A program made the translations under genes and the position numbers. Shown here in pieces: positions 17,101 to 61,450 of a stretch of 61,450 nucleotides of DNA (positions are counted from its first letter, which is position 1; the number at the start of each line of letters is the position of its first letter). The stretch comes from Coprinus comatus (Eukaryota; Basidiomycota; Agaricomycetes; Agaricales; Agaricaceae). The stretch spans positions 1 to 61,450 of the forward strand of contig JAWPGT010000108.1 in assembly GCA_034638255.1 (NCBI GenBank). The letters are read 5' to 3'. Below the pieces are notes generated by a model. The model had not been told where the DNA came from. It searched no databases and saw only the letters and a program-made list of their open reading frames with translations.

Positions 17101-17526
17101 CCTCAAAGGCACAAAATCTTTCAAGTGCCGCAAAGGCATCAGATTTGGCTCGTAAAAGGAGGATCCAGGCATGGCTAGAATAGTCATCATAGAACATCAT
17201 TGCCCACTTGTACTTGTGATACGAGGCAACGGGGAATTCTAGAAGATCACTATGGATCAATTCTAAAAATGACTTCGCTTGTGTCGAAGAAGGATGATGT
17301 GCATCATCAGACATTTTGCCACAAGCACAACCATCACATACTTGATGGGAGATAGGAATATCAAACTCAGGTACTTTTTCTGAGTGTTTTGGGAGTTGTC
17401 ACAATACTTCCTTTCCAGGATGCACCAATCGACAGTGCCAAAGATCATAAACAGAAAGTTTCGATGCGCAATAAGATAGCACCTGGTTTGCAGTATAGTG
17501 ACACACCAACCTAGTATGAACATGGT
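14181..17526 (-). pseudogene. Copia-A copy 1 pol (integrase, reverse transcriptase, RNase H)
   Basis: Read from high to low coordinates it shows the HHCC region (CDGCACGK), the integrase core (LIHSDLLEF, TDNGGKYVS, NGRAERLNRT), a proline-rich linker, reverse transcriptase (VNVKTAYLYGKLDEEIYM) and RNase H (YSDSDWASDP, SSTEAEYMA, CGDNMGSLF). It is broken by several stops. TGA 15257-15259 replaces the CGA of copy 2 after LGFK. TGA codons before the zinc region, after KAQAM, and after PSPE are shared with other Copia-A copies. The KDZ insertion removes the upstream part to 36612 and beyond. Confidence 0.85.
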
Positions 17527-17579
17527 GGGGCAACAGATCAATTTATATGGTAACAAATGGGTACCACTAGTTGTAATTT

Positions 17580-18092
17580 TTGGATACAGCGGGCTGTATC
17601 CAGCCATGTTGTAGAATTCTACTACAGTAGAGTGTAAGTAGTAGAATCCTTCACAGTATGAGTAGTAGAATCCTTCAATCCTATAGTGTGTGTAGTAGGA
17701 TTCTACTATGGTACCGTACATATAGTAGAATTCTACTATGGTACAGTGTGAGTAGTAGAATCCTTCAATCCTATAGTGTGTGTAGTAGGATTCTACTATG
17801 ATATAGTATGAGTAGTAGAATTCTACTATGGTACCGTACATATAGTAGGATTCTACTATAGTACAGCGCGAGTAGTAGAATTCTACTATGGTACAGTGCG
17901 AGTAGTAGAATCCTTCAATCTTATAGTGCATGTAGTAGGATTCTACTATAGTACAGTGCGAGTAGTAGAATCCTTCAATCCTATAGTGCATGTAGTAGGA
18001 TTCTACTATGGTACAGTGTGAGTAGTAGAATCCTTCAATCCTATAGTGCATGTAGTAGGATTCTACTATAGTACAGTATAGGAATTTAGAGA
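17580..18092. repeat. Left subterminal palindromic repeat array of the KDZ element
   Basis: Tandem ~30-bp units are built around GTAGTAGAATTCTACTAC-like palindromes, with variants TAGTAGGATTCTACTA and GTAGAATCCTTCAATC. The unit length is divisible by three, so open frames run through both strands (repeating YYMHYRIEGFYYSHCTIVE-type peptides). These are not genes. Confidence 0.85.
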
Positions 18093-18177
18093 TGATGATG
18101 ATACAAGGTTAAGTTATATTATCGTCTGGTACAGGAATATATACTACGGCTATGTCATGTGATGTACTAATGTCCAA

Positions 18178-18580
18178 CATACAGTGTGAGTAGTAGAATT
18201 CTACTACATGCACTGTACCATAGTAGAATTCTACTACTCACACTGTACTATAGTAGAATCCTACTACTCACACTGTACCATAGTAGAATCCTACTACGCA
18301 CACTGTACCATAGTAGAATCCTACTACATGCACTATAGGATTGAAGGATTCTACTACTCGCACTGTACTATAGTAGAATTCTACTACTCGCGCTGTACTA
18401 TAGTAGAATCCTACTATATGTACAGTACCATAGTAGAATCCTACTACTCACACTGTACCATAGTAGAATCCTACTACATGCACTATAGGATTGAAGGATT
18501 CTACTACTCGCACTGTACTATAGTAGAATCCTACTATACGCACTGTACCATAGTAGAATCCATACTATGTGATGGTAGGA
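18178..18580. repeat. Second, inverted block of the left KDZ repeat array
   Basis: These are the same repeat units as 17580-18092 but in opposite orientation, separated by about 85 bp of unique sequence. The whole left end can therefore fold into a large hairpin. Confidence 0.8.
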
Positions 18581-18676
18581 CTCCTAGAATAATAGATGGT
18601 TCTTAATAAAATTATTGTTCTTCAAATCCAAGGTCACACCACAGACATGATATATATTTAACGAAATACCTATCTA

Positions 18677-20639
18677 CTACTTCTTGATAGGCATATCTAC
18701 TCCCCAGCTTTCCTTGTACTTCTTCCTAATCCGCTCTACTGTACGAACTGCTATAAATTGTTCACATTGACTACTATCACTCTCCAATGAACCTGTAAAT
18801 AGATTTCTCCAATTGAAGCCCAATTTCTTCATATTTTGGATGAAGAATAAAACATTCCGAGGGGTCAAGGGAATAGGTCCAAAACCTTCATTGATAAGCG
18901 TTCCATCCACAACAGAAGAAATACTCCACTTTTTCCAAAGTAGAGCTCCTGCAATTGCAGTCTCAGGAGCGCATCCACAAGTAAGAAATCCCTGAACCTG
19001 TATTTTGATCCTCTTCTTTCCAACACCTGCCTTTGGATGGGGAACTCCATGAATCTTGACACCTGCAACAGTTCGATCACCATCTACGTGAGATGTACTC
19101 TTATCCTTCATAAAATGGTGAACACAATGAATATTACCAAGATCATTGGTGAGCATCTCCACAGTAAGAGCGAAAGTGGTACAATAGGCCTCAGGTAAGT
19201 AGCTGAAGCCATCTCTAACACGATTCTTGACTTCAGGAGGAATTGGTGTTTTCCTCCCCTTAGTAGTTAGCCAAGCATGGAGTATGGCAAGATCGGATTC
19301 TATATAATATGTTAGAGACATTCTAAAACTGAGAAATATATGCAAACATACCACGAAACTCATCAAAATTTGGTTCAACAAATTCTTCATCCTCATTTAG
19401 CCTTCTTTTTTTCCGTTCTTTTCCTTTTCCTTTTCCTTTTCCTTTGTCTATATTGTATATTAGAGTTAGATTGGAAGAAAAAGAAAAACTAAGCTTACCA
19501 GTTATATTTTCGTGAGATCTCTTGTTGCCTGTTGAGACTTCTGGGAGTTTACCTTAGTAAAGGTTTATAGCATATATTTGTGAACTTACCAATTGTATTC
19601 TCACTATCACTCTCAACATCTACCCATTGAAATGGAGCGCGTTTCCCTTTTCCTTTCTCCTTTCCCTTCTCCTTTCTTGTAGTTGAAGCTTCAATCAACG
19701 GAGTATCTGTGTCATCATCTGATAGTTCTGAGATATGCGCATCATCAGCTGATATATCCAAAATATCTTCAACATTATTAGTTGTAGCTAAAAACAAATA
19801 TTAGTAACATTTGCGAGTATGAAACAATAGTACTTACAACTTGTAGGAATGGTAAGATCAGATGGAAAAGATGAAGGTTCTTTGTCTTTAGTCAAGGGGG
19901 GAATAGGTGAGGAGGGGCCGGTGCTCATTGGAGCAGGAGTAGTACTTTGAACGTTGTTTATAATAGGTATGGATCCAGTACTTAGAGGGGCGGGGGTTGT
20001 TCGAGTTTCGTTTAAGGTGGAAGAAGATATTATAGTGATAGGTATTGGAGTGGGAGTGCCATTTCTCAAGGCATTGGTAGGAGCAATCAGAATAGATGAT
20101 AAAGAGGGTGAGGTGATAGAAGGTTGAACTTCAACGTTAGTTTCTTTGGCTGTGGCTTTGGCTTAATATTCTGGAAAATAAACAAAAAAATACACATACC
20201 ATTATTCTGCGCATGAGAGTTATCATCATCATCTTCACTTAAGTCAGAGGTAAGTGGTTCAAGATCCATATCTATTATTAAGGTTAAATGGGTTTGAAAA
20301 TAAAATTATTAGAAGTAGCGTACCAGTATCAGAAACTATAACCTTTGCTTTCTTGAGCTTGGTAATTTGCGTTCTTATGGATTTCAACTTCTTCTTCATA
20401 GCGGTGATATGTTGACTCTTGGATTTCATAGTTTCTAGAATAAAAACATTACCTGAGTATGAAATAAGAGGCAAAAGAATAGAAGTAAACATACGTGGGT
20501 TTTTCTTCCCTTTTCTCTTTTTGAACGACTCAAGTTGTTCAACCAAGTCTTTGATAGCAAGGTCAGCCGAGCTCTCTAGACTGACCAGAGAGTCAAGGGT
20601 TAGGGTTGAAACTTGAATTTCGAGGAGGGATGAAGACAT
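18677..20639 (-). CDS. KDZ cargo gene: coiled-coil, acidic linker and conserved C-terminal domain
   Basis: It starts at ATG 20637-20639 (MSSSLLEIQVSTLTLDSLVS). About eight exons with GTATGT/GTAAGT donors can be joined, with exon 1 at 20495-20639. The N-terminus is a lysine-rich coiled coil (KSQHITAMKKKLKSIRTQIT). Next come acidic runs (LSEDDDDN, ELSDDDTD), a Ser/Thr/Pro linker and a basic Gly-Lys run. The last exon encodes a compact ~225-residue domain that looks globular (ESDLAILHAWLTTKGRK, GVPHPKAGVGKKRIKIQVQG, WGVDMPIKK). I recognise no family, and the cysteines are too few for a clear zinc finger. It lies beside the TET/JBP gene in the same orientation, so a role in element biology or chromatin is possible but unproven. 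Confidence 0.55.
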
Positions 20640-20997
20640 TAGAAGAAAGGAGCGTAGGAGGAAAGAGAAATGCGATATTAGAAAGCTACCATAGAATAGC
20701 TGGTTTTTAAGTAAAAGGAAGTACAATGGACTAACCAAATGGGGAAAGAAATTATGAGATGACAAGGGTAATGACTGAAAGATGTAATTATATTATAAGT
20801 CAGTCAATTGTATTGTGCACGGGCATCAGGATAGAAGTCATGAAGTTATGAGATTGAATTTATAGTAATTATGTAATAAAAATGCGCACAAAAGCAAGTA
20901 AAGTAGTTAGATAAATATCTACTTAGAAGTTATTGTAGTATAAAAGTAGCTCAAACTAGCTAAAGGAAGTTATATAATAAGAAAAGAATGTAATTAA
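20640..20997. other. Short gap between the two minus-strand KDZ cargo genes
   Basis: AT-rich sequence lies between the start of the coiled-coil gene and the stop of the oxygenase gene. It probably contains the promoter of the former and the 3' end of the latter. No other feature is seen. Confidence 0.4.
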
Positions 20998-22360
20998 CTA
21001 TATAGAAGAAAGTATGTTATTAATATTAGCCCATCCTGGATGACTAATATTTAATCTATCAAATTGAACCTTCTTAACGAAAGATGCATAGCAAATTCGA
21101 TCACCTCTATCCCAAGACCCAACTGAATGCATTAACAAGTTTCCACAAAACTGGACTACAGTTCCAGGAGGGTAGTCAAAAGTAGCTCCTAACTCAGGAA
21201 ACTTGATAGTTGCTTGAGAATAAGTACCAACTGAAACTACCTGATCAAACCAAGCATAACATCCATTCCTATCTATATGAGGTTTTGAAATCCTATTTGA
21301 AATAACTGAAACCCCAGTAAATGCAGAAGTCCACCGAGAAGCCCAAAACTTGGTATTGTCAATTTTTCGTAACTCTTGTAAGAAGTTGTAACCAGCTTGA
21401 TAGAGGTCAGGATGGATGAAACGAAAAATGTCATTGAGGCTCTTGAAGACTTCAGTTGTAAGCAATAACCAAGGTTTCATATGAAGTTTTCATGTACTTA
21501 AAGATCTTGAAGTCTTGACCAAGATATCAAAGCAGTACTAGATTTAATAAGAACAAGTTATTAGAGGGAAATAATGAACTTACTCCATGACCTTGAGGGA
21601 ACCATCCAGGACTAAGAGTTAATGCACCTCGTGACATAACAGACCCCTGTTGTTGTAAGAAATACTTTCCATCAACCCTCCAAAGATGGCTATTACTCTT
21701 GAGAGAAGAATTAAAGGCTGATTTACTTCCATCTAAGATTTTCGTAGCATTGAAAAGATCATCCTAGAGAAAACATAACATTAAGAACAAGAAGTTAATA
21801 TAAAAGTAAAACATACCTGGCATTTTTCGGTCAAGGCAGAAGGTAGATATACAACAAGAATATGACCTTTGCAATCAACAACAAGAGTAGGAGTCTTGAT
21901 ATATCCAAGATTACATTTGGAAAGAATTGTTGAAATCTTCTTTGGTTGAACAAGTTTTGTGATATCAATATCAAGTACAACTATAAAAATAAAAATGATT
22001 AAGTTCAGAAAACATAAAATTAAAGAATAACTTACTCTGATTTCGAATAGCTCCTGCAAGTGCATGAACAGAATTTTGGTACTGTTGCTTTGGTGATTGG
22101 AATTGTGTTCGTGAAGTACCACTAAGTGGTACAAAGCTAGGACTAATGTTATTAGTAGATGAAAGATTTTGTTTTATATAAAACACATACCAATCTGGAT
22201 TAAGTTCAAGATATTTTAACCTTATATGAATAGCTTGAGAGAATTCCGAAGACAAAGAAGAATGTTCTATAGGTATGATTTGCTTGACTTTATTCCTCCC
22301 TCGAGAACGTTTGCGATTTCGATGAGAGCCCATGAGAGAATTGAAATGGGATTGAAGCAT
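20998..22360 (-). pseudogene. TET/JBP-family 2-oxoglutarate Fe(II) dioxygenase, one in-frame TGA
   Basis: Family members oxidise 5-methylcytosine or thymine in DNA. Exons 22036-22360, 21817-21980, 21584-21763 and 20998-21537 join in frame. A second start is possible at 22333 (MGSHRNRKRSRGRNK, basic). The conserved entry segment SRGALTLSPGWFPQGHG is present. The catalytic core has all iron and co-substrate ligands: HID in NRISKPHIDRNG, the distal His in LLMHSV, and Arg in GDRICYASF. A TGA at 21490-21492 sits between STSRSLST-type sequence and KLHMKPWLL in an otherwise continuous exon and could derive from CGA. The protein is therefore truncated before its catalytic domain unless read through or edited. 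Many fungal KDZ elements carry such genes. Confidence 0.75.
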
Positions 22361-24380
22361 TCTTCGACCCAGGTCTTATAAAATGGCCTGTGACATGGCA
22401 AGGTGATAGTAGGACAAATATTATATTCAATATTTCATAAACAATAATCATCTTAACTAATAACATTAGTACAATGATCAAACAATGGGAGGGTTACAAA
22501 CTTACATAATTTAGAACAACTCCATACTTCATCATGCATGACCTACATGACTTGTAACACAGGTCAGTATCTTTCACTTTCATGAAAAGTTATGAACTTA
22601 CACATAGAGTAATGTATTTTGATGTAACAGCCAGGAAGACAACTTCATTCGAAAATCTTTCAAAGGAACTAATATATTATATAATGTCAATAAATGTGTA
22701 ACGAGCAGGGAAACAGATACATACCAGGCATGATTGATGACTGATCAGAGTTATTGAGAATAATAAAAATAATAAATGAACAATCATCATTGGAAAATAA
22801 CGAGACAAATTCAAGGCAGTGGAACATACCAGTTGCATAGCAAAGACCTACTTCAATAAGAACAGAGGGAGCATCGGAGTTTGTTGATGCGAATACAGGG
22901 GCAAGAGTTTTGGATTGCATCAAGGGCAGGAAGGGACTGAGGGAGCACATATAGAGCAGGTTGAAGAGACAAAAACCAGGATTGTGTCATATTCCGTTCC
23001 GTCACATGACCGCTAACCCTGAATTCTGCCAAGTTCACATATCACAATTCCGATTAGACAGCGAATCTCCGGATTTCCGATCTTCCTGAATTTCCTAATT
23101 TCCAGATTTCCATTGTTCATTAATTATTCAAAGGGACTTTTCCGTCCTCCGGAAATTCCGGGTTTTTCTTATCTTGCTTATTCTTCGGTTATCAATTCTA
23201 TTCAGTTTAGTTTGACATTTCCATGCGTTTCCTATGCTTCTTAATTCTCCAATATTATGCCATTACTTTCCGTCTTCCGTTTTATCTACCTCCGTTTGTA
23301 TTTCTTCTCTGATTCAGATTTCCGTTATTCCTTATTACCTTTTTTATCCATTACGGCATTTCGTATAAATAGTTCACTGCTATGTTTGTATTTCCTCAGT
23401 TTCAGAATCGACCTGATATACTCTTAACTCTCCGAATCGTCTCAACCGCCTGCACTCTTACTTTTCCAGTCTTCCGGAAACTCTGCCGGAAGTCCCCCGG
23501 AAATTCGTAAATAGACCTTGTACAAATTCCAGAGGCGCAGCACACACGCTGAAGCCAAGGGTCATCCCTCTTGGTATTTTCAGTATTTAACAGATTGAGG
23601 CCAGCAAGGCAAGCGTTGAGGAGATTCGTGAGTGTTGAGCAGATTCTTGCGAAAAGAGTATCAAAGAGCACGTCAAGGTGAGTGTGGGAGGGGGGGAAGA
23701 AAAACAGAGCATGGAGCAGATTCCCGACCTCAAGGATGTAGCAGATAGGAGAGTCGAGGCGTCAAGGGTGTAGGAGACAGCAGGTTGGCAGGTCGGGAGG
23801 AGAGAGAGAGAGAGGGAACCAAGAAGAATGTGGACACAGGTGCATCTTAAGTACCTGCCAGCAGGTGACGTGTCAGTACGTTAGGCAGATGACGAAAACA
23901 CGGAGACCGCTCAAACCTATTGGGGTGCAGGGTATGGGCGGTCACTTGAAGACCCTACCTAGACCACAGAGCTTGTCCGGATAAGGAGGGGATTCCAAGA
24001 TGGCAGTTTGAAGCAAGGATTCCAAAAGAGAAACATAGGTAAGCTAATCATCACGGTTTAATAATACTCACCGTAAATCTTCATAGTTATTCTTTAAAGG
24101 ACGAGAGAGGTGCAAGGATTAGGGGGGAAATGGAGGGGAAGACAAGGTGAGAAGCACCAGGCATGATTGATGGCGTTGTGGTAACAGCCTTCCAGGGTCA
24201 CAGTGCTATTTTGTAACGGCTCGGCAGTCAGATCATGATCAACGAATACCCGACTAAATCCTTGTTTTGCAATGGAATGATATAATACAATACCACCTGA
24301 AGAATACTCTACATCTTCGAACAAACCTAAGTCAAGTACAAACACAAAATGGGCGTACCAATCATGGTTCAAAAGCAAAG
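22361..24380. other. KDZ interior with small uncertain exons
   Basis: Minus-strand fragments could be exons. One near 22810-22950 reads NSDAPSVLIEVGLCYAT before a GTATGT donor. One near 24150-24350 reads GGIVLYHSIAKQGFSRVFVD. Both lie near an ACCAGGCATGATTGAT word (about 22725 and 24156). Positions 23040-23400 are AT/pyrimidine-rich with many TTCCGG-like words, and 23680-24000 are purine-rich. I could not assemble a gene here. Confidence 0.35.
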
Positions 24381-24419
24381 AATATACAAAGACAATAGCA
24401 TGTCATGGCATACAATGAG

Positions 24420-26270
24420 AGAGAGAGACCGACTTAAAGAAAAGCGACAACACAAACAACGTATACAAGAAAAGAAAAAAAAAATCGATAATCGAACGAC
24501 ACAAGCACCGAATGCCTCCTCTTCCAAGAAGTCCAAGAGGTCGTCAAAGAGATCTGAGCATTGGTAGATTGGGAATCCAGAGCCGGGATTTTGACCCCAC
24601 ATTGTAGACAAGATGGTGAGTGTCGTGAATGCGTAAGACAATTTGTTTGGAAGTTTGGAACGGATGGACATTCACAACCCTTCGATATTGATGGTGCCCC
24701 AATCGTTGGTGTCGCGCATAGGTCGTCACTGTGGAACAGAATTCCATTCCAGGTCAATTAATCGGAGATCTGTGCCACCATAAGTATCCAGTTCTCTCGC
24801 CAATGGGACGTATTCGATCTTGCGCCTGAGTGGCTGCCGCATCCGTGCTGGTATAGTATTCTGGGGTTGTTGATGTGGAATAGATGTATCACCATTTGTG
24901 GAAGGCAGCTTTAAATACAAACAGTTAGGCGCGAGCACTGAACGCAGAGTAAAAGACTTACAGGATTGTTATCGAGAGAATCTGTGGTGAAAGATGGGTC
25001 ATCTGATTCTGAGAAACAGGCCCAAGATTAGAAACTGCTTGTGCTGGTGGCTGATGAGGCGTATGGGGGGTATGAGTGCCTGCGTTCGGGAAGTATGCGC
25101 CATTGGAATTCGACACTGCTCCCTGGACAGGCTGGCCCATTATACCCATGCCATTGGCCATAGAACCACGTTGCACTGGGCCAGGTTGAACACCCATTGG
25201 AGGCACGCCACGCATTTGGGCCTGCTGGCGGGCAGCCATTTAGGCCTTGCGTTGTTGCTCCTGGATGTTCTTTTTGTACAGGTCTTCAAAAGGGTAGAGA
25301 ATGGCAGTATACATCTGCTCTAATTGGGCAGCGACTGAAGTGAGACTGTGTATCGGCACCTGAGGGTACTCTTCTGGCAAATTGAATTCAATACAGATTG
25401 AGGGCCACCCATTATTAGCTTTGATCTACAAGACAATGAGTTAATGAGGACAGGAGTTGAATGGGTACTCGTACTGCTTGTGCACCCCCATGTTGCATCA
25501 CAAGACTCCAAAGTTTGAAGAGATTGACATCGTGGCCAGCCAGTCGGAAGGAACCTACTTCTGAGGGTTCAATGTATGACCAGGGAGAAGTATTTGGGTC
25601 ATAGTTTGGAGTTGGCACGCCTGTGAGTGGAGGCGGCAGAGGGGTATTCCGCTTAGCCATGACATTTGTGAGGCCTGCGAGGAAACTCTGCTGGCACTGT
25701 TTGAGGGAAACAGCCTGTGGGGAAGGCTGTAACGTGGCTGGATCGGGGAAAGAAGAATTGACAGCCGAGTTTGGGGTATGCGGTACGCTATGATTAATCG
25801 GCAGCTGAAAATTCACATGTCCATTCACAGAAGCAGACAAGAGGTCGTGTTTAGAACCTGAATAGCCTGCTGGTCCTATTCCCCCAAGAAATATGGCCCT
25901 GAGCTTGTTCCACCACCAGCGCTCATTGAAGGAGGAGCCCGGCTGTTGGCGGCTATCCGGGCATTGCTGGCGACACTGAGGGCGGCCATCTGCTTTGCGG
26001 CCTGGGAGGGGTCTAGGTTGAAGTAGGAGGGGTGATCGAAGGAGGGGTTTGGGGACATAAAGGTACAACGTCTGGAATCAGAGAGAAGGTGGCTTGTTGG
26101 GCCATATGCTGCGACCACAGGCGACTCATCAAGCTGAGGCTGTTGGATAGGGCCTGTCAGATGTATGATGAGTATTGAGACAGAAAGCAGACCGACCATC
26201 TTTGAAATGAGACTGGCCACGTCAATGTCGACTTCAGCAGTGCAGAGCGGCATTCGTTGGTGAGCCATTT
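24420..26270 (-). pseudogene. SWI/SNF ARID subunit (Swi1/ARID1-like) gene, decayed, inside KDZ
   Basis: In the reading direction I see glutamine/proline-rich sequence, then an ARID domain (KQCQQSFLAGLTNVMAKR, FRLAGHDVNLFKLWSLVM, then after an intron NNGWPSICIEFNLP). Next come RRKIEYVPLARELDTYGGTD and a helical part LSYAFTTLTILSTMWGQ with CSDLFDDLLDFLEE. ARID1-type subunits contact DNA in SWI/SNF remodellers and end in such a helical domain. The gene is broken. A one-base loss in the C run 25881-25885 shifts the frame at FLG/GIG. A TAA follows QEQQRKA near 25240, and TGA codons occur at 24726-24728 and 24672-24674. The real host gene presumably lies elsewhere, so this looks like a captured or displaced copy. 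Confidence 0.6.
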
Positions 26271-26364
26271 TCATAGTGAGTTCAACTCGACATCCCATTA
26301 TCAAACATTTCGCCTCCATTCGGCATTTCCCGGTAATATCAGGTAAGCGTCTACCCTTACACCC

Positions 26365-26655
26365 ACTCATTGCCTGCATCGCATTGATTTCATTCTCAAT
26401 TGCTCCATACCCATCATCAACCACAATCTTAATAGCCAAGTAGCGGCCATCCGCCCAGCTGAAGGCCTTGAATACCTGTCCACATCCACCAGCGTCGTGC
26501 CATCCCGTATCAAACACCAGGCTCAAAGTGAAAGAATCCCATTTCAGGCCATAACAAGGATGATCTTGGTGAAGAATAACATCACCAGGTACAGACCACT
26601 CGGCACTCGCCGGTAACATCAGGTAAGCACTAACCCCAGCGCATTGCCGCATCAC
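26365..26655 (-). pseudogene. Protein kinase N-lobe fragment
   Basis: The frame contains a glycine-rich loop (GGCGQVFKAFSWADGR), the lysine strand (YLAIKIVVDD) and a glutamate-containing helix (GAIENEINAMQAM). Together these resemble the kinase ATP-binding lobe. No catalytic loop (HRD) or DFG follows. The fragment runs into the start of the Swi1-like pieces, so it is an exon remnant or a capture. Confidence 0.5.
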
Positions 26656-26759
26656 TGGTGAGCGCTATCCATATCACTTATTTCTTCCAGCAACTGACGC
26701 TTCTCTTTCTGTTCAACATGTAACAAATTGCATCCGCATTTGTTATACTATTGATTACA

Positions 26760-27265
26760 GGAACTTGGTGGCGCAAACGGTTGGTAGGTCCAGTCATTGT
26801 CCTCGTTCGTGTTCCACTGTGTTGTTACTTGGCTTATGATGTTTATTGGGCTGTTCTCAAGGATGAGATCTGCTGTGGGGTTCACAGCCTCTAGGGTTGA
26901 TACCAGTGCGGCTAGGACGGCATTTCTGGTATTTTGTTCCAGCGAGTCTGGTGTGATTGCCCTGCCCGATCTTTCGGCTTAAGGAGTAATGCTGTCCTTG
27001 TCCCGGGTGAAGACGATGGCGAAGCGAATGGACGACTTCCTCTTATATTCCATCTTATTCCACTGGTCATTCATTCTGGTACAAATGCCGCTGGTGTCGA
27101 GTGACTCGATTGCAAAGGGATCGTGGGTCGTGGTGTTGTGACCTCCATTCGCTTGGATGGTTTTGCGTGTTCAGTGCGGTGACCTACGGCGTATGTCCTT
27201 GTTCTAGCTAAGATTGTGTCTTGTTCATGGGTTTGCAGGTCATCGTCACTGGGTGATCGATCCAC
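26760..27265 (-). pseudogene. RNase H-like fragment, possibly from a non-LTR retrotransposon
   Basis: On the minus strand NTRNAVLAALVSTLEAVNP and ENSPINIISQVTTQWNTNED resemble the helix and DS-x-W part of RNase H domains. The expected second aspartate region reads ILENS rather than TDS, so the site is lost. Stops interrupt the upstream part (near 26980 and 27070). I am not certain of the source element. Confidence 0.35.
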
Positions 27266-27289
27266 CGCTGCTCACTTACACATTTACAC

Positions 27290-27560
27290 ACTCAACCTGT
27301 CACTCAATCTCGCACCCTCAATCTCGCACTCTCAATCTCGCACTCTCAATCCCATGCTCTTACTCTCATGCTCTCACTCTCGGTCTCTCTCTCGCCATCT
27401 CCCATGCACACACTCTCGCTTTCTCACACTCGCTCTCTCATGCACACACTCGCTCTCCCACTCTCTCACTCTCTCTCATCATCTCTCATGCACACACTCT
27501 CGCTCTCTCATTTGTTCTTGCTTTCTCATGCTCTCTCTCTCTCTCATGTTCTTGTTCCCC
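27290..27560. repeat. CT-rich minisatellite (CTCTCA/CATGCACACACTCTCG)
   Basis: Pyrimidine-rich tandem units contain CTCTCACTCTC and repeated CATGCACACACTC blocks. Long open frames on the plus strand (SLSHAHTLAL-type peptides) come from the repeat and not from a gene. Confidence 0.85.
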
Positions 27561-28854
27561 TTCCAAATACTATCCACGAGGTCATCACCTTGACTCATGT
27601 AATTCCGTCTACTTCTTCAAACTTAGTGACCAAATGAGTTTTCATTATAGTTCATGTTGTAGTAGTTAAGTAGATATCTCATGAATATTATTAGTCCCTT
27701 CTTTACTCATATTACAAGCACATGTGGTCAGAGCTCATGTCAGAATCAAGATATCTAACATTGAAATATAAGTCCGAATGCCCGCCATTCTTCCCTGAAC
27801 AGGGACGCTGTATTTGGTTGCATTTGTAACGTGGGCATGTATTTTGGCTCAAACGGACAACTCACACCCCCAATCTTTCCCCCAACCATCCAGGAGGAGG
27901 CCCTTTGTCGTGTTTTGAGATAAGGCCGGTGTCAGTGGCCAGGGCACCAGCTAGACTCTTTTACACATGTGTGGTACCTGGTGAACGTGTGGATTGGTTC
28001 CCTCTTGCTTTAGCAGAGGTATCGCGTGGACTTTCAACCTTATGTATGGACTTGCCGCTTATTTCGGAAACGTAGGGCTGGTGTCTGTACTTTGGTTAGT
28101 ACCATTGCGCGAGGTAGAGCTTGCCACCTACCAGTACATGGCTCAGCACCATGTTTTCCCATTTGCAATTCCCAATCCGGAGATTTCAAAGTTCAAACTC
28201 GTAAGTTCCACTTTTGCTACCTGCATGAGGTTACCGTTAATGTGACTCTTCTAGGTAATTCACGGTTTCACCTTCTGGTATCACCAGATTCATGGTTCAC
28301 CCCTCCATTTCTTTCCAGTAAGTTCTTGAATTCTAAAATGAGTCAATAGCTAATCCATTTAAATAATTTTGTATGCTTCGAAGTTCACACCATATACAAG
28401 CTCATCCAACCGCTCACATACTCTCTCCAAATGGACATCACCTCCCATTCATTCGGAATCATTCCACCTAACAAGGTATGAATTGATTGTTTTGAACTTA
28501 CTTCATTCAACCCATTGATTATCTCTTTCCAGGTTTATCCATACACCATTACGATTTCACTTTCATCATCCCTATCTTGTTGCAATTCAGCACTCCCATT
28601 CTCAAATATTCATGCTAGCAAGGTATGATTTCTTGAAACTTTGTTCATTTAACTTGTTGATTACTTTCTAAGTTCGTGACCATTTGGATTTTGCATTTCA
28701 ATGCCTGGCTTACTTGATTTCTATCTTGGTATGTTTTCAATACTCAAAATCCAATCTGCTAACAAGTTTGAGTATGTTATTCCAGATTTTTCGACCTATG
28801 TAGAGTATTCCTAACTTGTAGTTTTTTTTTTTTACATACATTTCTTATTGTTTT
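27561..28854. other. KDZ interior without an identifiable gene
   Basis: Plus-strand pieces are bounded by intron-like words (AAGGTATGAATTGATTG..TTTCCAG near 28475-28533, AAGGTATGATTTCTTG..TTTCTAAG near 28630-28675). They suggest a decayed spliced gene, but no domain is recognisable. Confidence 0.3.
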
Positions 28855-28857
28855 TGG

Positions 28858-28954
28858 ATCTAGTGTTTGCGCAGACACTAGATTTAAAAACATTTTTTTT
28901 TTCTTTTTCTTTTTTGACTTTGGATAAGAAGAAGCGCAACTTCTTATTCAAAGT
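28858..28954. repeat. Two adjacent hairpins with GCGC-containing loops
   Basis: Hairpin 1 pairs ATCTAGTGT (28858-28866) with ACACTAGAT (28875-28883) around the loop TTGCGCAG. Hairpin 2 pairs ACTTTGGATAAGAAG (28917-28931) with CTTCTTATTCAAAGT (28940-28954) around the loop AAGCGCAA, with a single mismatch. T-rich tracts separate them. Confidence 0.75.
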
Positions 28955-29149
28955 TTTTTTCTTCTTTATATTGCTTTAATGCTTAATATGTATAAATCTA
29001 TTGCTTTTTATGGAAATTTGCCCATAACCTTAATAGTTGGTGTGAATTGTATATTGTTGGTATTCAGAGACCAGGATTGTCAGTAGGTTGGGGTCAAACC
29101 ATCAACCCGCAGGTTTGCAGGTTAGGTCAATCCATGAGTTTTCATTAGT

Positions 29150-29673
29150 GTTGAGGGATAGCACTGAAACCAGGATGGGCGGTTGAAGTTTCTATTTTGG
29201 TCATCAAACATTTAGCCTTTGTTTTTACCTCATGCTCGAATTTGTGGTTTTCATTCCATTTGTTTGATTTCCAATCATGTACATAAAGGCCAAATTTTCA
29301 CCTTTCACTTTCCTCAGTTGTTACCATTGTGTCTAACATCTGAGGTGAGCATTCTATTATGGCCTTTATGCTTTCTTATCTGACATGTATTCAAAGTTCA
29401 TACGTTTTCAGATATATCTAAATATAACAAGTCATCATGTTAGATAAAGAAAGGTATAATGGCCACTAAGAATGCTCACCTTAGACGTTAGACATAATGG
29501 TAATGACTGAGGGAAAGTAAAAAGTGAAAATTGACCATTAAGTACATGATCAGATATCAAACAGAAAAACAGCAGAAACAAAATAGAGCACAAGGTCTTG
29601 AACGAAAGGCTAAAACATTAGAAGGATAAAAATAGAAACTTTCACCCTCTCAGGTTTCAGTGCCATCCCTCAA
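29150..29673. repeat. Long imperfect inverted repeat (foldback)
   Basis: The left arm (29150-29387) and right arm (29435-29673) are inverted copies with a 47-bp spacer. Matching pairs include GAGGGATAGCACTGAAACC with GGTTTCAGTGCCATCCCTC, GGTGAGCATTCT with AGAATGCTCACC, and TCTGACATG with CATGTTAGA. The arms are about 80% identical by eye. It lies just left of a solo LTR. It could be a foldback/MITE relic or the source of a long hairpin RNA. Confidence 0.75.
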
Positions 29674-29707
29674 TATGATGAAAAACCCTGACCCCACATA
29701 TGGGTAC

Positions 29708-30079
29708 TGTAAGGGTGACTCAAGGTCGGTGACAGCGGCATGACATCTGACGAGGAAATCCAAAGTTTATTAGGTCAGAAATACAAACATAGACAGTACA
29801 ACATACCTGACGAGGAAATCCAAAGAGAAAGAGTTAGGGATTTACTCGCCAAGGCACTACATTATATACTACTACTACAAAAGGAAGCCCAGTCTTCAGA
29901 ACGGAGGTTGCCATGGTAGATGCTGTGAATGCTGAATGGCATGAGGGGGTTGATCGTGGTAGGTTGAAGTTATGAAACTTTCCGACGGGAATTGGGAAGT
30001 TGGCAGATGGGATGGTTGTCGGAAAGTTGGAGACGATGTTGGAGACATCAGCAGTTGGGAAAGAGATGGTCCCCTTACA
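29708..30079 (-). mobile_element. Solo LTR, family F, with GGTAC target duplication
   Basis: 372 bp starting TGTAAGGGTGAC and ending GTCCCCTTACA, flanked by GGTAC on both sides (29703-29707, 30080-30084). The TG...CA ends plus a 5-bp duplication fit an LTR. A related copy lies at 38565-38925. Orientation is uncertain. Confidence 0.7.
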
Positions 30080-30188
30080 GGTACAGGTCAAACCCAGGGT
30101 TACCCCAAGGTCATATAATATCATATGAAAGTAGTAAACACAATCTTTGGCCCAAATTATTGTTTGACAGTTTAATCCAAAATATAAG

Positions 30189-31373
30189 TTATTTAGATAA
30201 CCTCTCCAACTCCTTTAACTTCGCTTGTAACTCCTTAAGTTCAACATCCTTTCTTTCCAAATCTTGTTGTGCTTGAAGAGCCTCCTTTTTGGCCAGATCA
30301 AGATCCTTTGCAATCTTTTTTGTCTCTTCTCTTCTTGAAATTGTAAGTGCATTTGCTAAGCTTTGGAAATCATTAATAATTCCCAAGGTTTCTTCTTTTC
30401 CCTCCCTTCTTAGCCTTGGAGATGTATAATAGCTTGTAGATGCGGAACCAGTTGCTTGTTGAGAAATAAGAATGGTATATGAGTCCGTCTCTCTTGCAAA
30501 TTTCTCAACCTAGTTTAACTTATTAGAATTTTTCACTTTATAAAAAAGAAAAATAACTTGCAGAAGCCATTAAACTTGGAAGCTGTCTACTATAGCGTTT
30601 ATTTGACTTTCCAGAATCTATAATTTTATTTCTTAATGCTCTAGGCCTCGGAATACCTATACCAAATAGCTTGTTAATTCGATAATACAGAGTGAGAATT
30701 AATTAAACTTACTCCAAGGTTCACTTCCTTTTCAAACTCCTTCTACAAACCCCCATGGCTTTTCAGTCTTGGTTACTTTCTTTTTGGCCTGAGTTACTAT
30801 AGTAGGAGTGTTGGAAAAGACATCTCTCCCATTTGATCTTGAACTAGCTGGTGTTGGGGTTGAAGGTGAAGAGGTTGATATATCAAAGTTACTGATTGTT
30901 GAAGAATTACTGGAGGAGAAACTTGCATCTGAATTTTGTTCTGGAGTAGATGGAGTAAGCGACCATGCTCTTGGGCTTGAAGTAGTGGTTCTTGTAGGTG
31001 TTAATAGACCTGGAGAAATAGCTCTGGTTTCATTTTGTCTATCATCCCCTTCTAGCCCCTGAGTCTCTGACGTTTCTTCAATTTCCATCTCCTCTACCAT
31101 TCTAGTTTCCTCAACATCTGGAGCCTGAGTCTCTATTTCTCTAGCCAAAACTTCCTAAAACTTAAAAGTTTATATCAATTATATTTTGAAATTCATTGAA
31201 CTACAAACCTGGGATACTAAGATGTGACCTTTTTTCTTACCACCACAGCTACAATCTTTTTTTAAAGGCTTCCCTGGACATATTCGACATCTAGGAGGCT
31301 GTCTAGTCTTAGTGATTGATGTTGAGGAATCCAAAACCTTTTGGGAAGGTTTTTGAACTCTGGAAGAAGACAT
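30189..31373 (-). CDS. KDZ-associated Cys-cluster and coiled-coil protein (one in-frame TGA)
   Basis: It starts at ATG 31371-31373, just 86 bp from the divergent transposase start at 31460. The N-terminus has a small cysteine cluster (PPRCRICPGKPLKKDCSCGG). After an intron comes an acidic stretch (VEEMEIEETSETQGLEGDD), a Ser/Thr/Pro linker, then KPWGFVEGV followed by TGA 30732-30734 where KGSEPW continues in frame. Further exons encode IPRPRALRNKIIDSGK and a C-terminal coiled coil (LDLAKKEALQAQQDLERKDV) ending at 30189. The cysteine pattern suggests metal binding, and the divergent arrangement suggests co-expression with the transposase. I infer an accessory role for transposition, without known precedent for this exact architecture. 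Confidence 0.55.
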
Positions 31374-31459
31374 TGGTAAAGTTACCTAAGTTGAATTTTG
31401 ACTTATATAAGGATATGGTAATTAGATCATTCTTTGCTTCTCCACTTCCCTCACATCCA

Positions 31460-34400
31460 ATGCCTAAACGTTCCTATCCTGAGGATGAACTACCTCTGTT
31501 AACTCTTGATTCTCCACCTGAACAAGAAATGAGTCTAGCTTCACTTGATGATCCACTAGATTACCCAAGCTTAGGAAGTGTTACTGGTACACCTCAGAAA
31601 AAACAAAAAATCATAAAAAACAAAGTTAATAGGCAAAAGAAAGGGAAGAGAAGAGAAAAAAGCATAGAATTACAAGTCCAAACACCTTTTACTTTCTCTT
31701 CAACTTCGAATGAAATGGAAGTTATGGAATATATGGAAGAAAGGAAAGAAGTAGAAGTTAACCGAAATGATGGCAATGCATCTTATTTGGAATTTGTTGA
31801 TGGAGTTATCATTGGAGTCATACCGTTTTATCGCATCTCATCAAATATATTCATAGTTCAAGGCTGGGACTCTAAATACTCAACCTTAAATGTTTGTTTT
31901 ATTTTATTTTGGTTTTATATATATCTTAAAGATCTCTTTTAGAATAAATGGTATCATCTTCAAATGGACTACTCGACTACCAATCCCACCCCTGTTTGCT
32001 ATTGTGGACCCAACTTTGAACAAGCAAAATGCGTTCATTCCCAGTTTTTACTAGAATATGGTATTGAATATTTTGAAGAACCTGAAGGTTAGTTTTTCTA
32101 TTCCTAACTATTATATAATCTAAAATAATACATAATATATCTATAGATATTGATCTTGATATTGTTCTATTCTTTCGAGAAAAGCAAGAAAGTGAATATC
32201 TCAACTGTTTTTCTCTCTCCTCCCCTCAAGATCCAAGATCAGCCAAAAATAGAACCATTACGACTTTTATTGGGCTTGATTCTGGACAAGGAATCTGGAA
32301 ATGTAACAAGGACTCTGGAAATCATTGCAATCATATCAAACGCTCTATCCAGTATTTTAATGGTTCTAAAAATTCACATTCTTCTTTTAATGAAAATTGT
32401 TCTAGTAATGAAATTCCCACTGGTATGAAATTTTTAGTTTTATAGGTTTTATTACTAAACTCAGTTAAAACAGAAGAACAATTAATTGTTCCAAATATTG
32501 GCATCAAGTCCATTAAACCTATATCATATAGGCCAATTTTACCACCCCTTTCAACTCGACTACCTTCAGATCCAAAACTCTATGAAGATATCCCTCCTGT
32601 AACTGATGTTCCTCAGCTCCTTCCTCTTAACTCATATTCCAAATGTCTATGTGGAAAAGAGTACAATCCTCAATTGCCTACATATCATCTCCCTTGCGTC
32701 ATCTATACTCTTACCAGAGTATTAAAACCAATATTGAACTCCAATATGTCCTTCTTGTTCAAAATCAAGATACCAAGCAATTGGTCCAGATTGTCGCGAC
32801 TTGGGACTTCTCAATCTTAACAACCATGCGCTTTTTTCCCATGATCTTCTTGAAGATTATACTCTCTCCTATACCTCATCAGAAACTCCATTTATTGCGT
32901 GGGTTAAAGTTACCTCAGCCAGATACCAACGTTTCCAAAGTGATATTGTTTTTTGCGATGAAAAAACATTCCGAAATGCCTGGTTTGGATATGCATCTCT
33001 ATTATTTCTTGAAAATGATATGAAATGTCCCATTTGCAAAGATTTTCCCGAAACTGTAATTTGGGATGGCGTTACTTTGGCCTTTAATAAGAGAAATCTT
33101 CAAGAATCTCTTTATCCTCCAACAACTACTCATCCTAACTCAATTATTCGCAAGGGAACCTATCCTAAAAATCAACCATTAATTGCCAATTCTGAATGCC
33201 AAAAACTTCTTTTAAACACTTTCGTGGAACCATTAAAAGTTCCTCAACAAGTTGTTATTAATCAATTGGAGAATCAAGATTCATCTGATGAAGAGCTGGA
33301 GCAGAATCGTTCTCAAAACTTTCAAAAGCAAATGGCTAAAATTAATAACCTTCCTCTTCTTCAAAAATGTCTTAAAGAAGAAAGCATATATCTAGAGCAG
33401 TTGTTTGAAAAATATTGCTCTGCAAATGCACTACTAAAATTTGGTACTTGTCCCAAAGAAATTAGCCAGTTTTTCTTTCAGGTATGGTTATTTTTCTATT
33501 ACAGAAATAGATTACTAAAATTCTAACTTATAGTTGGGAAGTAACGATTCTCTTCTTCAAGTTATTAATATACCTGCATTAAAGGCTCTCAAATCTTTTC
33601 TTGAAGATCCTTCCCAACAACATAGATTGGATCTTCTTTCTTGCATACCTTCATTATACTGGCTTTTACTTTTTCACCAAAAACAAAATCCAAACTGGGA
33701 ATCATCTACTTTGGGCATTTGTAGCTGGATTAGGGATAAGGTCGAAAAAGGGTGGAATAATATCATCAAATATGATGTTCCTGATATTACTAATGATGTA
33801 AAAGACGTTGATGGAGGTTGGAAAAAGGCAAGTTTCAAATTTATATTTTATTCCAATACTTACAATAAATAGAGTGGCTGCAAATATAGTATGCCTCAAA
33901 TCAGACATCGTCCTAAATATCCAGGATTTAAATATGAGGCTGAAAAAGAACAAAAAGAACGTGGAGGAAAGTGCAACAAATATTATAGCACTTATGGTGA
34001 AAGTGGACTTACAGGAGGCATTATGTGCGCTTGGTGTACCCATTCCATTTGCTATGGATATCATTGTATTCCTTCAAGTGAAGGAAGAAATGATGTATTC
34101 TCAGCAATGATAACTAGATGGCCAAAAGCACCTAAGTATGTGATATATGATTTCGCATGCCAGCTAGGACCATATTGTCGGAGTCGGGAACCCACATTTT
34201 TTGCAGATACATTATTTCTGATTGATAATTTCCATTCATCAGGACATCGTAGATGTAGTCCAGCCTACTTTCTCAAAACATATTCTGAAAGCCAACCTTT
34301 GCTGGGAAGGATAAATTCTAGTGCTGCTGAATGTGGAAATGGAGGCCTTACAAGAATAAGGAAGTCGGTTAGATATATGGGGCAGGAAAGATCTATAATT

Positions 34401-34466
34401 TATACCATGGTTTTTTTATCTATTTGGAATAGAGTTAGAACGCAGAATATCCAGAAAAGGCTTTAG
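31460..34466 (+). CDS. KDZ transposase with CxC-type cysteine clusters
   Basis: The first exon (ATG 31460) is basic and low complexity, then an intron at 31892. The following exons carry cysteine clusters: NPTPVCYCGPNFEQAKCVH, WKCNKDSGNHCNHI, CLCGKEYNPQ and CPSC. Next come the family-typical GPDCRDLGLLNLNNHALFSH, SETPFIAWVKV, CPICKDFPETVIWDGVTLAF and the C-terminal core. The core has TGGIMCAWCTHSICYGYHC, APKYVIYDFACQLGPY, IDNFHSSGHRRCSPAYF and SSAAECGNGGLTRIRKS, with the acidic residues expected of an RNase H-fold transposase. It ends at TAG 34464-34466. Near 32.71-32.76 kb two frame changes occur between IYTLTRVL and CPSC, so this copy may be inactive. It shares its last exon with the copy at 60.99-61.43 kb. 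Confidence 0.8.
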
Positions 34467-34498
34467 TTTGCATATTGTAGTATATCTAAGGTCTGGTA

Positions 34499-35811
34499 TA
34501 CTTGGAGTCACCAAAAGTGATGTCGCGTCGCAGATTTTCCCACGGACAATCATTGATGTATTACTCTCCTGCAACTTCGGGAGATAGACAACGAAGTTGA
34601 ATACATATGGAGTATATTCTACTACAAGATTACCTATAGAATATAATATTAAAATTGTATATGACCACCCCGTGCAGCCAAAACAGCCTTGACACGGTCT
34701 GGCATTGTTCCAATGAAATGGTCAACCCGGTCAATTGGTAGCAAGTCCCATGCAGCATGGACTACCAACTTTAATTCATCCACAGTGTTTGGTTGATGTT
34801 GAAGACCACGTAGGGATGTTTTGAGGATATGCCAGATAGGCTCGATGGGATTTAAATCGGGAGATGATGGAGGATGATATGTAAGCGGGATATTTTTAGC
34901 TGCAAACCACTTCTTTGACATTTTGCTGATGTGGCTTGGGGCATTATCCTGTTGAAATTTGACATGGCCCCGGAGTTCATTCATCCTTTTGTAGAAATCA
35001 AAAAGATATGGTTCAAGAACTTGTTCTTGGTACCTTTTAGATGTCATTCCTCCACCATGTCCTCCCGGATAGTCTAACACAACCAAAGGCCCCTTCCAAC
35101 CCTCTATGATACACCCCCCCCACACCATAACTCGTATGCTTGATTGCTTGAAGGTTGGGATAAGACATTCTTCAAGAAAGGCTTCATTGGGACGACGGGT
35201 TACAAAAATACGGCCCTGATGATCATCAAGACAAATATAGCACTCATCAGAATAGATGACACGTCGAAAATTAGCCATCAATGAGATACTATTGATTCGT
35301 GCCCAGTTCAATTGTGCTCGTTTGTGCTCATTCGTAAGGAAAGGTACCCTCAGAGCCACCCTCCGATGGTAGTTCCCCTCAGCAAGAACCCGCCGCACTG
35401 TGCTAACTGAAATTTGTAGTCCAATTTCGTTCACAATTTGTTGAAAGGGTGTGCGGCGTTCTTTTCTTGCTGTACGAGCAAGCTGACGCTTGTCATAGCT
35501 ATTTAGCTTCTTCGGCCTGCCTATGCGAGCTTTGTCAGCAACTGAACCAGTCACTTCATAGTGCTTGATGATGCGTTGTGCAGTCCGGGGCTGGACATTC
35601 TCCTTTCGGCCTGCTTCAGCTGCATTTCCTGTTGCATGGTAGTACCCAATAATTCGGTTTCTTGTGGGAATGTCAACCTCTCTCCGAGAAGTCTTTGGCA
35701 TAGTAGTTAGAAAGGGTAGAATATAATTATATTTCGCCAAAAACACAACATGTCATTCAACATGTGAAACAATCATTATGTAAGCGACATCACTTTTGGT
35801 GAGTACAAGTA
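34499..35811 (-). mobile_element. Tc1/mariner element inserted in the KDZ transposon
   Basis: 1313 bp with 28-bp inverted ends (TACTTG..TCACCAAAAGTGATGTCGC) and a TA duplication (34497-34498, 35812-35813). The second KDZ copy keeps the empty site near 60813-60830, with one TA, which confirms the insertion. Confidence 0.93.
34649..35701 (-). CDS. Tc1/mariner transposase, DD34E, intact frame
   Basis: 350 residues run uninterrupted from ATG 35699-35701 (MPKTSRREVDIPTRNRI) to the stop at 34649. The N-terminus holds a paired helix-turn-helix region (NAAEAGRKENVQPRTAQRII, then RIGRPKKL, the GRPR-type linker). The catalytic residues are Asp in IYSDECYICL, Asp in FQQDNAPSH and Glu in LNPIEPIW, with 34 residues between the last two, so DD34E. 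The ends recognised by such enzymes are the inverted repeats flanking this gene. The transposase cuts and pastes into TA. It has no internal stop or frameshift and may be recently active, unlike most elements around it. Confidence 0.95.
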   Translation of the reverse strand: MPKTSRREVDIPTRNRIIGYYHATGNAAEAGRKENVQPRTAQRIIKHYEVTGSVADKARIGRPKKLNSYDKRQLARTARKERRTPFQQIVNEIGLQISVSTVRRVLAEGNYHRRVALRVPFLTNEHKRAQLNWARINSISLMANFRRVIYSDECYICLDDHQGRIFVTRRPNEAFLEECLIPTFKQSSIRVMVWGGCIIEGWKGPLVVLDYPGGHGGGMTSKRYQEQVLEPYLFDFYKRMNELRGHVKFQQDNAPSHISKMSKKWFAAKNIPLTYHPPSSPDLNPIEPIWHILKTSLRGLQHQPNTVDELKLVVHAAWDLLPIDRVDHFIGTMPDRVKAVLAARGGHIQF

Positions 35812-35894
35812 TATTGATAGATATTGCATAGGAATGGAATTATACTATACTAGGATATGACCTTCTACAACATTATGGGCAACTAGGCCACATA

Positions 35895-36535
35895 TATCGT
35901 ATGATGGAGTATGAGTAGTAGAATCCTACTATGCTCAGGTATGGATAGTAGAATTCTACTACAATACAGTGTGAGTAGTAGGATTCTACAACTTATAGTA
36001 TAGATAGTAGAATTCTACTACTCACACTATACTATGGTAGGATTCTACTACAACATAGTATGAGTTGTAGAATCCTACTATGCTCAGGTATGGATAGTGG
36101 AATTCTACTACAGTATGGTGTGAGTAGTAGGATTCTACAACTCATAGTATGGATAGTAGAATTCTACTATCTATACCTGAGCATAGTAGGATTCTACAAC
36201 TCATACTATGTTGTAGTAGAATCCTACTATAGTATAGTGTGAGTAGTAGAATTCTACTATCTATACTATAAGTTGTAGAATCCTACTACTCACACTGTAT
36301 TGTAGTAGAATCCAACTATGCTCAGGTATGGATAGTAGAATTCTACTACAGTATAGTGTGAGTAGTAGGATTCTACTATGCTCAGGTATGGATAGTAGAA
36401 TTCTACTACAATACAGTGTAAGTAGTAGAATTCTACTATGCTCTGGTATGGATAGTAGGATTCTTCAATCCTATAGTGCAAGTAGTAAGATTCTACTACA
36501 GTATAGTGAGAGTAGTAGAATTCTACAATATAGCT
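35895..36535. repeat. Right subterminal palindromic repeat array of the KDZ element
   Basis: ~30-bp units contain GTAGAATTCTACTAC and GTAGTAGGATTCTAC with spacers such as TCACACTATAC and TGCTCAGGTATGGA. It is followed by the end block GCTGGATACAGCCCACTGTA to CTACGTG at 36611. It matches the left end and the copy at 59902 in inverted orientation. Confidence 0.85.
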
Positions 36536-36730
36536 GGATACAGCCCACTGTACCCAAAAATTACAACTAGTGGTATCCATTTGTTACCGCTTTTGGTTAA
36601 TCCGCTACGTGAACATGGTGGAGGGCATCTTCCATAACTTTAAACGTTGTGATGCGTGATGCATGCATGAATAATTTTCCGTTTGAACGAAATATGTTGG
36701 TTCGCTTTAAATTTGACTCACTCCTCATTC

Positions 36731-37354
36731 TGTTACGAGTCCACCCAAACCACCGGCCCGTACCACCACCACCGAGGAAGACTTGTTCGCCATCTTCCCC
36801 GAACTCATTCCCAATGACGACACCATGGACGACTCCGCCTGACATACCATTCCCCGGTGACATCACTATGACATCGCTATGACCTAATGTCGAACTAAGT
36901 ATGAGACTCCACTTATGCTTAGAAGTCTGCATTTCCCCAGCTCCAGTATTAGTTATCCGTTTCGTCATTTTACTCCTGTTGACTAATCTTTCATTGTATA
37001 TGGAGTAAATAGTCCCCGACCCTGATGTCTCACCTACTCCTGTTGACAGTTCTAGCATTGTGTATGGAGTAGATTATAAAGCGATGACGAGTATTTAGGA
37101 TATACGTAGTTAGTAGCTATTATTAGGTACATCCCTAGAATAGTATAAATACTCACTGTATTAGATGATTAAAGCCTTAAGCTTTAATCTCTTCTGTTGT
37201 AGCCCTTATACATCTCTGTCTCCATACCTCTCGGTCACTAGGTTGAAAGGCCTTGAGATTGCAGCAGAGTGTTTATTGATTGCATGTTCCTAAATGACTG
37301 CACCTAGCGTTTAAGTTCCAGGGTGTTCAGCTTAACGGTTCGTGGTCATAACAC
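36731..37354 (+). mobile_element. Solo LTR, family C, with CATTC target duplication
   Basis: 624 bp, TGTTACGAGTCC...GGTCATAACA, flanked by CATTC (36726-36730 and 37355-37359). Removing it restores the Copia-A frame. A TATAAATAC box lies near 37145. It is related to solo LTR D by a shared AAGCTTTAATCTC/AAGCTTAATCTC word. Confidence 0.85.
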
Positions 37355-59901: not shown

Positions 59902-59984
59902 CACGTAGCGGATTAACCAAAAGCGGTTACAAATGGATACCACTAGTTGTAATTTTTGGGTACAGTGGGCTGTATCCAGCTATA

Positions 59985-61425: not shown

Positions 61426-61450
61426 TCTATTTATTATAAGTATCAGAACA

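Follow-up and report, generated by a model that had tools for sequence, protein, structure and literature searches.

Evidence for a TET/JBP-bearing KDZ transposon of Coprinus comatus with palindromic end arrays and captured host DNA

Introduction

The 61,450 nucleotides of Coprinus comatus DNA considered here (the window) make up the whole of contig C108 (JAWPGT010000108.1) of a 35.7-Mb assembly, and other C-numbers below denote contigs of that same assembly. Positions 17527-36611 of the window (19,085 bp) are, with high confidence, one copy of a cut-and-paste transposon of the KDZ superfamily. Between its ends lie genes for a CxC4-type transposase, a TET/JBP dioxygenase and two further proteins, named here by open reading frame (ORF) as ORF1 and ORF3, together with arrays of a short palindrome and fragments of host DNA (Table 1). 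An initial annotation of the window had proposed a single KDZ transposon of about 19 kb, and the recovery of the same two halves, between the same ends, at a second place in the genome bears this out. Neither the nested Tc1/mariner element nor the second family copy that enters the window at 59902 figured in that annotation.

Table 1. Features of the element and its surroundings, in window coordinates.
Feature	Position	Strand	Basis or remarks
Left target-site duplication AACATGGT	17519-17526	none	End comparison and empty site
Left terminal block GGGGCAACAGATCAATTTATAT	17527-17548	+	Common to 6/6 left ends; unlike right terminal block
Left inner inverted repeat	17549-17607	+	93% to 36530-36588
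Left array part 1, palindrome TAGTAGRATYCTACTA every 30 bp	17611-18078	none	Repeat and site counts
Left array part 2, inverted relative to part 1	18191-18567	none	Repeat comparison
ORF1, orphan gene	18677-20639	-	Hand-set 8-exon model, 536 amino acids, no stop in window copy
Predicted TET/JBP dioxygenase, AG type, 4 exons by eye	20998-22333	-	Tet_JBP E=3e-16
Captured host ARID gene fragment	24503-26063	-	C1:966479-968193, 94.5-95.8% identical
Captured 5' part of host PF10255 gene (presumed eIF3L)	26064-26357	-	C110:32654-33002, 79%
Captured piece just upstream of presumed eIF3L	26670-26766	-	C110:32550-32645
ORF3, Cys-cluster/coiled-coil gene	30189-31373	-	Both features recognized by eye
CxC4-KDZ transposase gene with introns	31460-34466	+	Pfam CxC4 and KDZ; one frame change near 32714-32738
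Nested Tc1/mariner element	34484-35808	-	Downstream of transposase stop; absent from 5 other right halves compared
Right palindromic array	35908-36526	none	Repeat and site counts
Right inner inverted repeat	36530-36588	-	Counterpart of 17549-17607
Right terminal block CACGTAGCGG...	36589-36611	-	Common to 7/7 right ends
Right target-site duplication AACATGGT	36612-36619	none	End comparison and empty site
Right end of second family copy in window	59902-61450	-	Cut by contig end; left end on C128

Ends, insertion site and full copies

The limits of the element are fixed exactly by its relatives, since GGGGCAACAGATC opens all 6 left ends examined in this family and CCGCTACGTG closes all 7 right ends; positions 17527 and 36611, as first annotated, therefore hold to the base. 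Inside the terminal blocks lies an inverted repeat of 59 bp with 93% identity. The element is flanked on both sides by an exact 8-bp duplication, AACATGGT; where 8-10 bp had been suggested, the 8 bp stand, and the apparent match beyond them is microhomology of the flanks. The octamer by itself is not rare, as the window has 7 sites where 2.95 would be expected, which tells against leaning on it, so that the weight of the evidence falls on the empty site and on the other copies. When the flanks are joined and one AACATGGT is removed, the resulting sequence differs at 1 of 112 positions from each of two uninterrupted Copia copies in the window (43640-43900 and 59330-59590), and the frames flanking the element match Copia-type RVT_2 and other Pol domains; the insertion was thus rightly placed inside Copia sequence that is uninterrupted in sister copies. 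The right Copia flank is itself broken by a repeat of about 620 bp at 36731-37353, with three relatives in the part of C3 examined and two in C73, which is probably another small mobile element.

A second full copy (C33:185381-218667) carries the left half with the TET/JBP gene and the right half with the transposase gene in the same order and with the same ends, and is flanked on both sides by an 8-bp duplication of its own, GAGAGTAG. This copy measures 33.3 kb, and contains a long terminal repeat (LTR) element with 517-bp terminal repeats, by eye of Gypsy type, and a smaller KDZ element; without both it would be about 20.4 kb. A third copy is split over C128 and C108, where ATCGTTTT stands on both sides and pairs the left end on C128 with the element that begins at window position 59902. 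Copies with the same ends and 8-bp duplications, which the initial annotation had proposed to look for, are thus present elsewhere in the genome.

Transposase and ORF3

In a Pfam scan, the transposase gene matches CxC4 with an expectation value (E) of 1.9e-29. Homologues of the transposase half number 276 proteins, of which the best 120, chiefly from Agaricales, have for the most part 38-53% identity across most of the query; the closest among these 120, P0001, has both CxC4 and KDZ domains. The last exon is 55-75% identical to 10 aligned homologues, taken from the 120, and its residues D93, D118 and E153 are invariant with them and presumably form the DDE triad. The domains, the architecture of P0001, the invariant D/D/E and the 8-bp duplication together place the element in the KDZ superfamily, as annotated, and in its CxC4 type. 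The ratio of non-synonymous to synonymous substitution rates (dN/dS) between the window and other copies is 0.04 for the last exon and 0.13 for the CxC4-side exon. The gene of Cys-cluster and coiled-coil type also present in the annotation corresponds to ORF3, recognized by eye.

Several observations weigh against this assignment or against an intact window copy. The KDZ match itself, obtained for the single exon (E=2.3e-5, 24.6 bits), lies under the curated cut-off of 26.6, and in a scan of the 543-residue spliced transposase half CxC4 alone is listed and KDZ is not. The transposase frame shifts near 32714-32738 relative to the copy on C102, which has frame changes too. ORF3 has a TGA in the window where 4 of 4 other copies have CGA, and likewise the last exon of the TET/JBP gene has a TGA where 5 of 5 other aligned copies have CGA. 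Base-calling errors may lie behind these lesions in all three genes. Taken at face value, the frame change and the two TGA codons mean that the window copy is probably not autonomous, and it is probably an older, disabled member of the family.

TET/JBP gene, ORF1 and CpG decay

The window gene aligns with CcTET of Coprinopsis cinerea (PDB 7vpn), the closest solved structure, at E=5.8e-12. The positions H326, D328, G331 and D337 (CcTET numbers, counted by hand from the start of the alignment) are kept; the roles of these residues and the AG type are described in Kojima 2025 (PMC12730594). By its HxD motif with G331 and D337 the window gene is of AG type, and the HxE in place of HxD that marks the PE type is not found. 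It is likened to CcTET through these positions, and differs from it in that the window copy is interrupted by a TGA and is a predicted enzyme only. The TET/JBP dioxygenase of the initial annotation is thereby recovered.

The acidic coiled-coil gene of unknown kind in that annotation is ORF1, which has an acidic, coiled-coil N-terminal part and a conserved C-terminal part. No Pfam match was obtained for ORF1, and residues 320-536 had no relative among 918 candidates from the protein database; a single-sequence AlphaFold model reached a mean predicted local distance difference test score of 36. A genome search with Tet_JBP, in which the best candidates only were scored, gave 17 places, 14 of them above the family cut-off, and no free-standing host TET/JBP gene was found in that search. 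At 16 of these 17 places the same strand also carries an ORF1 match, at a distance of 1.4-1.7 kb, the sole exception (C83:278) being near a contig start. ORF1 matches in the genome fall into groups at about 85, 70, 50 and 41% identity. Near the members of the 41% group (C1:9472, C13:708232 and C126:22070) there is no TET match.

Between the window and other copies, dN/dS is 0.16-0.17 for the last TET exon and 0.35-0.36 for the last ORF1 exon; together with the low values of the transposase exons, this indicates purifying selection while the copies diverged. It argues against the view that the TET/JBP gene, ORF1 and the debris beside them are carried along passively and do nothing for the transposon, as does the adjacency of ORF1 to nearly all TET places and the fact that the last TET exon is free of stops in some copies, those on C43 and C128 among them. 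Such a passive load is rather unlikely, but it draws support from the last TET exon in the window, C33, C10 and C73, which contains or follows a stop or other lesion, and from the CpG sites of the element, which decay like those of neighbouring Copia sequence.

The CpG evidence comes from near-identical copies, compared in three blocks of four copies each, with the fifth left copy (C73) left out and 39 singleton indel columns set aside. Among 45 singleton substitutions, 26 are CpG transitions, and C/G sites within CpG changed at 26 of 454 as against 12 of 4341 for other C/G sites (odds ratio 22, p=1e-18). In the captured ARID piece 20 CpG sites have been lost versus 8 in its host counterpart, and in the captured eIF3L piece 15 versus 6. 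The excess of CpG transitions in the near-identical copies implies that the element would be CpG-methylated while encoding a putative TET enzyme. Two points count against protection by that enzyme: neighbouring Copia copies also show CpG-type differences (seen in pairs only, and hence no test of rate), and the observed/expected CpG ratio of the element is 0.52 compared with 0.66-0.71 in its surroundings. There is thus no sign of TET protecting the element.

Palindromic end arrays

Both ends of the element hold arrays in which a 16-bp palindrome recurs between variable linkers. Exact TAGTAGRATYCTACTA sites number 46 in the window, all within three arrays, where shuffled sequences give a mean of 0.00. 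The left array has 28 cores and the right 21-22, spaced mostly by 30 bp (three times by 29 bp on the right). Conservation in the palindrome is 1.72 bits per position on the left (linker 0.53) and 1.73 on the right (linker 0.62), to be read with the reservation, unfavourable to a conserved site, that cores were chosen for resembling the palindrome, with up to 4 mismatches allowed, a choice that by itself raises their bits. The whole genome has 308 exact sites and none of the reversed control; the 50 distinct sites listed of these 308 are all found no farther than about 1.4 kb from an end or a gene of an element, one of them (C2:2087045) relying on a weak ORF1 match.

A second subfamily, in which GGGGCA starts 14 of 14 left ends displayed (the 15th was not covered), repeats the palindrome at intervals of about 31 bp, separated by different linkers; the left end on C65 starts AGGGCA. 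Three partial ends contain 5-6 cores apiece, and a fourth stretch is too short to reach the array. As the palindrome and ORF1 both recur in this subfamily, both belong to the element. The arrays are read as phased putative binding sites for a dimeric protein of the element.

It would also be conceivable, if improbable, that the arrays are an ordinary minisatellite grown by slippage. Unit number and linkers differ between copies and subfamilies, linkers of the second subfamily vary rather little inside any one array (1.09-1.59 bits), much as a young expansion would show, and two small non-autonomous derivatives, on C19 (633 bp) and C25 (579 bp), have no clear 30- or 31-bp period. Slippage accounts less well for window arrays in which the palindrome is kept and the linkers are not (subject to the selection of cores), for the recurrence of the palindrome in the second subfamily, and for the nearness of the listed genome sites to element ends or genes.

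Captured host DNA

The middle of the window element contains DNA copied from host loci. The ARID piece, whose domain matches Pfam at E=2.4e-7, derives from a host locus on C1 that encodes an ARID protein and which is taken here to be SWI1-like. It retains a 49-bp intron, inferred by eye, so that a retro-copy origin is rejected; about 155 bp have been deleted and 2 bp inserted. There are 11 synonymous and 10 non-synonymous differences from the host, and the ratio of non-synonymous to synonymous differences per site (pN/pS) of 0.3 rests on too few to call the piece neutral. Beside it lie pieces of a PF10255 (Paf67) gene, presumably eIF3L, whose only locus detected apart from the element copies is on C110. 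A 48-bp gap in the captured eIF3L was considered as a spliced intron and dropped, since by eye it removes part of a GT-AG intron together with coding bases, and lies between CATCA repeats. The segment at window 26377-26595 matches C110:30674-30894, a stretch upstream of eIF3L, at 90% identity, and it runs opposite to the neighbouring eIF3L pieces. Copies of the C33 type hold about 1.8 kb of the same eIF3L gene at 90%, and since this gene appears in both subtypes, its capture probably preceded their split, the ARID capture having come later in the window lineage. Other middle stretches of the element match C38, C83 and C7.

Host fragments taken up at the DNA level thus stand between the transposon ends while their parents remain in the genome, as in a gene-capturing (transduplicating) DNA transposon. 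Of the chromatin-gene debris in the initial annotation, the ARID piece stands; its nature is revised to captured host DNA, with eIF3L pieces adjoining. That these fragments instead arrived as processed copies or other transposons inserted into the element is quite unlikely. Nested transposons do occur in copies of the family, namely Tc1 in the window and the LTR and smaller KDZ elements in C33, but the ARID intron is retained and the inferred eIF3L intron only partly deleted, adjoining pieces derive from different contigs, and the capture junctions inspected by eye showed no terminal repeats. Within the C33 copy, frames at C33:195019-196258 resemble by eye a hAT-type transposase, and there is a weak zf-RVT match at about C33:192315-192989; both add to the transposon debris in the family's middle region.

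Integrity and spread of the family

Middle segments on eight contigs (C33, C43, C10, C128, C73, C102, C98 and C3) overlap with 98.95-99.87% identity and tile the TET side into the transposase side, an identity that points to recent spread. The window copy is divergent from other copies, at 83-88% over ORF1-TET, 79-81% over 23595-24261 and 92.8-96% on the right, with its middle replaced. In the transposase part its identity to C127 is 98.7%. A TET element on the left and an independent KDZ element on the right, side by side, could be suspected from this unequal divergence and from the contig breaks that split the halves in most copies, but the idea is highly improbable, and already refuted provided that the C33 assembly is correct, because the window and C33 each carry both halves, colinear between the same ends with matching 8-bp duplications, and the middle segments join the two sides.

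Of eight left/right end pairs on a common contig, five have identical 8-mers (window, C33, the nested element of C33, C13 and C26), and those of C19 and C25 match at 7 of 8 bases. Three cross-contig pairs, selected for matching flanks, agree at 8/8 (C128/C108), 8/8 (C27/C83) and 7/8 (C43/C102). The three 7/8 pairs differ at the base touching GGGG, read as CpG transitions. Some ends fit a single cut-and-paste insertion poorly: the same-contig pair C27:256262/273385 has no matching duplication, two left ends (C24:323579/324343) face each other 765 bp apart without a duplication, and two right ends (C83:31329/35415) face each other about 4.1 kb apart without a matching one. C27:273385 and C83:84968, one of them a left end and the other a right end, lie on separate contigs and have the 8-mer CACATTGT in common. 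This points to an assembly join or to a rearrangement within the repeats; contigs may accordingly be broken or joined inside these repeats.

Comparison with known systems

Iyer and colleagues are said to have linked TET/JBP genes to KDZ elements in 2014. TET-bearing KDZ elements are in any case already known from basidiomycetes, as the initial annotation stated, since the accessible text of Kojima 2025 (PMC12730594) describes TET-bearing Kyakuja of Agaricomycetes, with 7-bp duplications, CA..TG termini and no terminal inverted repeat (TIR). The present element resembles these in its KDZ-type transposase, its AG-type TET/JBP gene and its mushroom-type host, and differs, as far as that text describes them, in its 8-bp duplication, GGGGCA..CTACGTG ends, 59-bp inner inverted repeat, palindromic arrays, ORF1 and captured host DNA. 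Neither mark of Kyakuja is found: the duplication is of 8 bp in the window, C33, C13, C26 and the nested element of C33, and a 5' end GGGGCA with an inner inverted repeat takes the place of CA..TG termini without TIR. The same source describes TET-bearing Zisupton, an 8-bp duplication for Zisupton in general, and the AG type in Zisupton of Auriculariales (PMC12730594). The element shares with TET-bearing Zisupton the 8-bp duplication and the TET/JBP gene (compared by description); arrays, ORF1 and host-gene capture are not mentioned for it in that text.

An 8-bp target duplication is given for Zisupton, Dileera and KDZ1 in two sources (PMC12730594, PMC12810828). KDZ1 of Cryptococcus neoformans, about 11 kb long with 8-bp duplications, CxC1 and 241-bp TIRs (PMC12810828), is akin to the present element in superfamily and duplication length, and differs in having CxC1 and not CxC4 and in its long TIRs; the text of that source as available mentions no TET/JBP gene for KDZ1. 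Transposons with host gene fragments are known from plant Pack-TYPE elements, described as non-autonomous (PMC8903248, in part), and from transduplication in the fungus Pyrenophora tritici-repentis (PMC3538342, in part), so that host-gene capture in fungi is not itself new. Pack-TYPE elements are of plants and non-autonomous, whereas the present case is a TET-bearing KDZ element of a basidiomycete. A literature search at the level of titles and abstract openings found no report of palindrome arrays, of an ORF1-TET pair or of host-gene capture for KDZ elements. What is new here is the 8-bp duplication with GGGGCA..CTACGTG ends, unlike those of TET-bearing Kyakuja, the palindrome arrays, the ORF1-TET pair and host-gene capture by a KDZ element.

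Proposed mechanism and significance

In the mechanism proposed for this KDZ transposon, the transposase, perhaps with ORF3 or ORF1, would bind the palindromes and pair the ends, then cut and insert with an 8-bp stagger. TET might oxidise methylcytosine on the element and so relieve silencing, with ORF1 working together with it, and the window copy would be mobile only with proteins supplied by intact copies. Host fragments may have been copied at the DNA level, perhaps during repair of the excision gap.

A more far-reaching possibility, offered tentatively and with considerable doubt from sequence comparison, is that ORF1, the end arrays and TET form a self-targeted anti-silencing module. ORF1 (or the transposase), seated on the palindromes, would bring TET to the element's own ends and demethylate them where the transposase acts; the TET/JBP set of this genome would then be essentially transposon property, carried by elements that also take up host genes.

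The family offers a TET-carrying KDZ element with exact ends, target duplications, an empty site, small non-autonomous derivatives and near-identical copies. Two questions thereby become testable: does a TET enzyme borne by a transposon act on the element that encodes it, and by which protein are the end arrays recognized?

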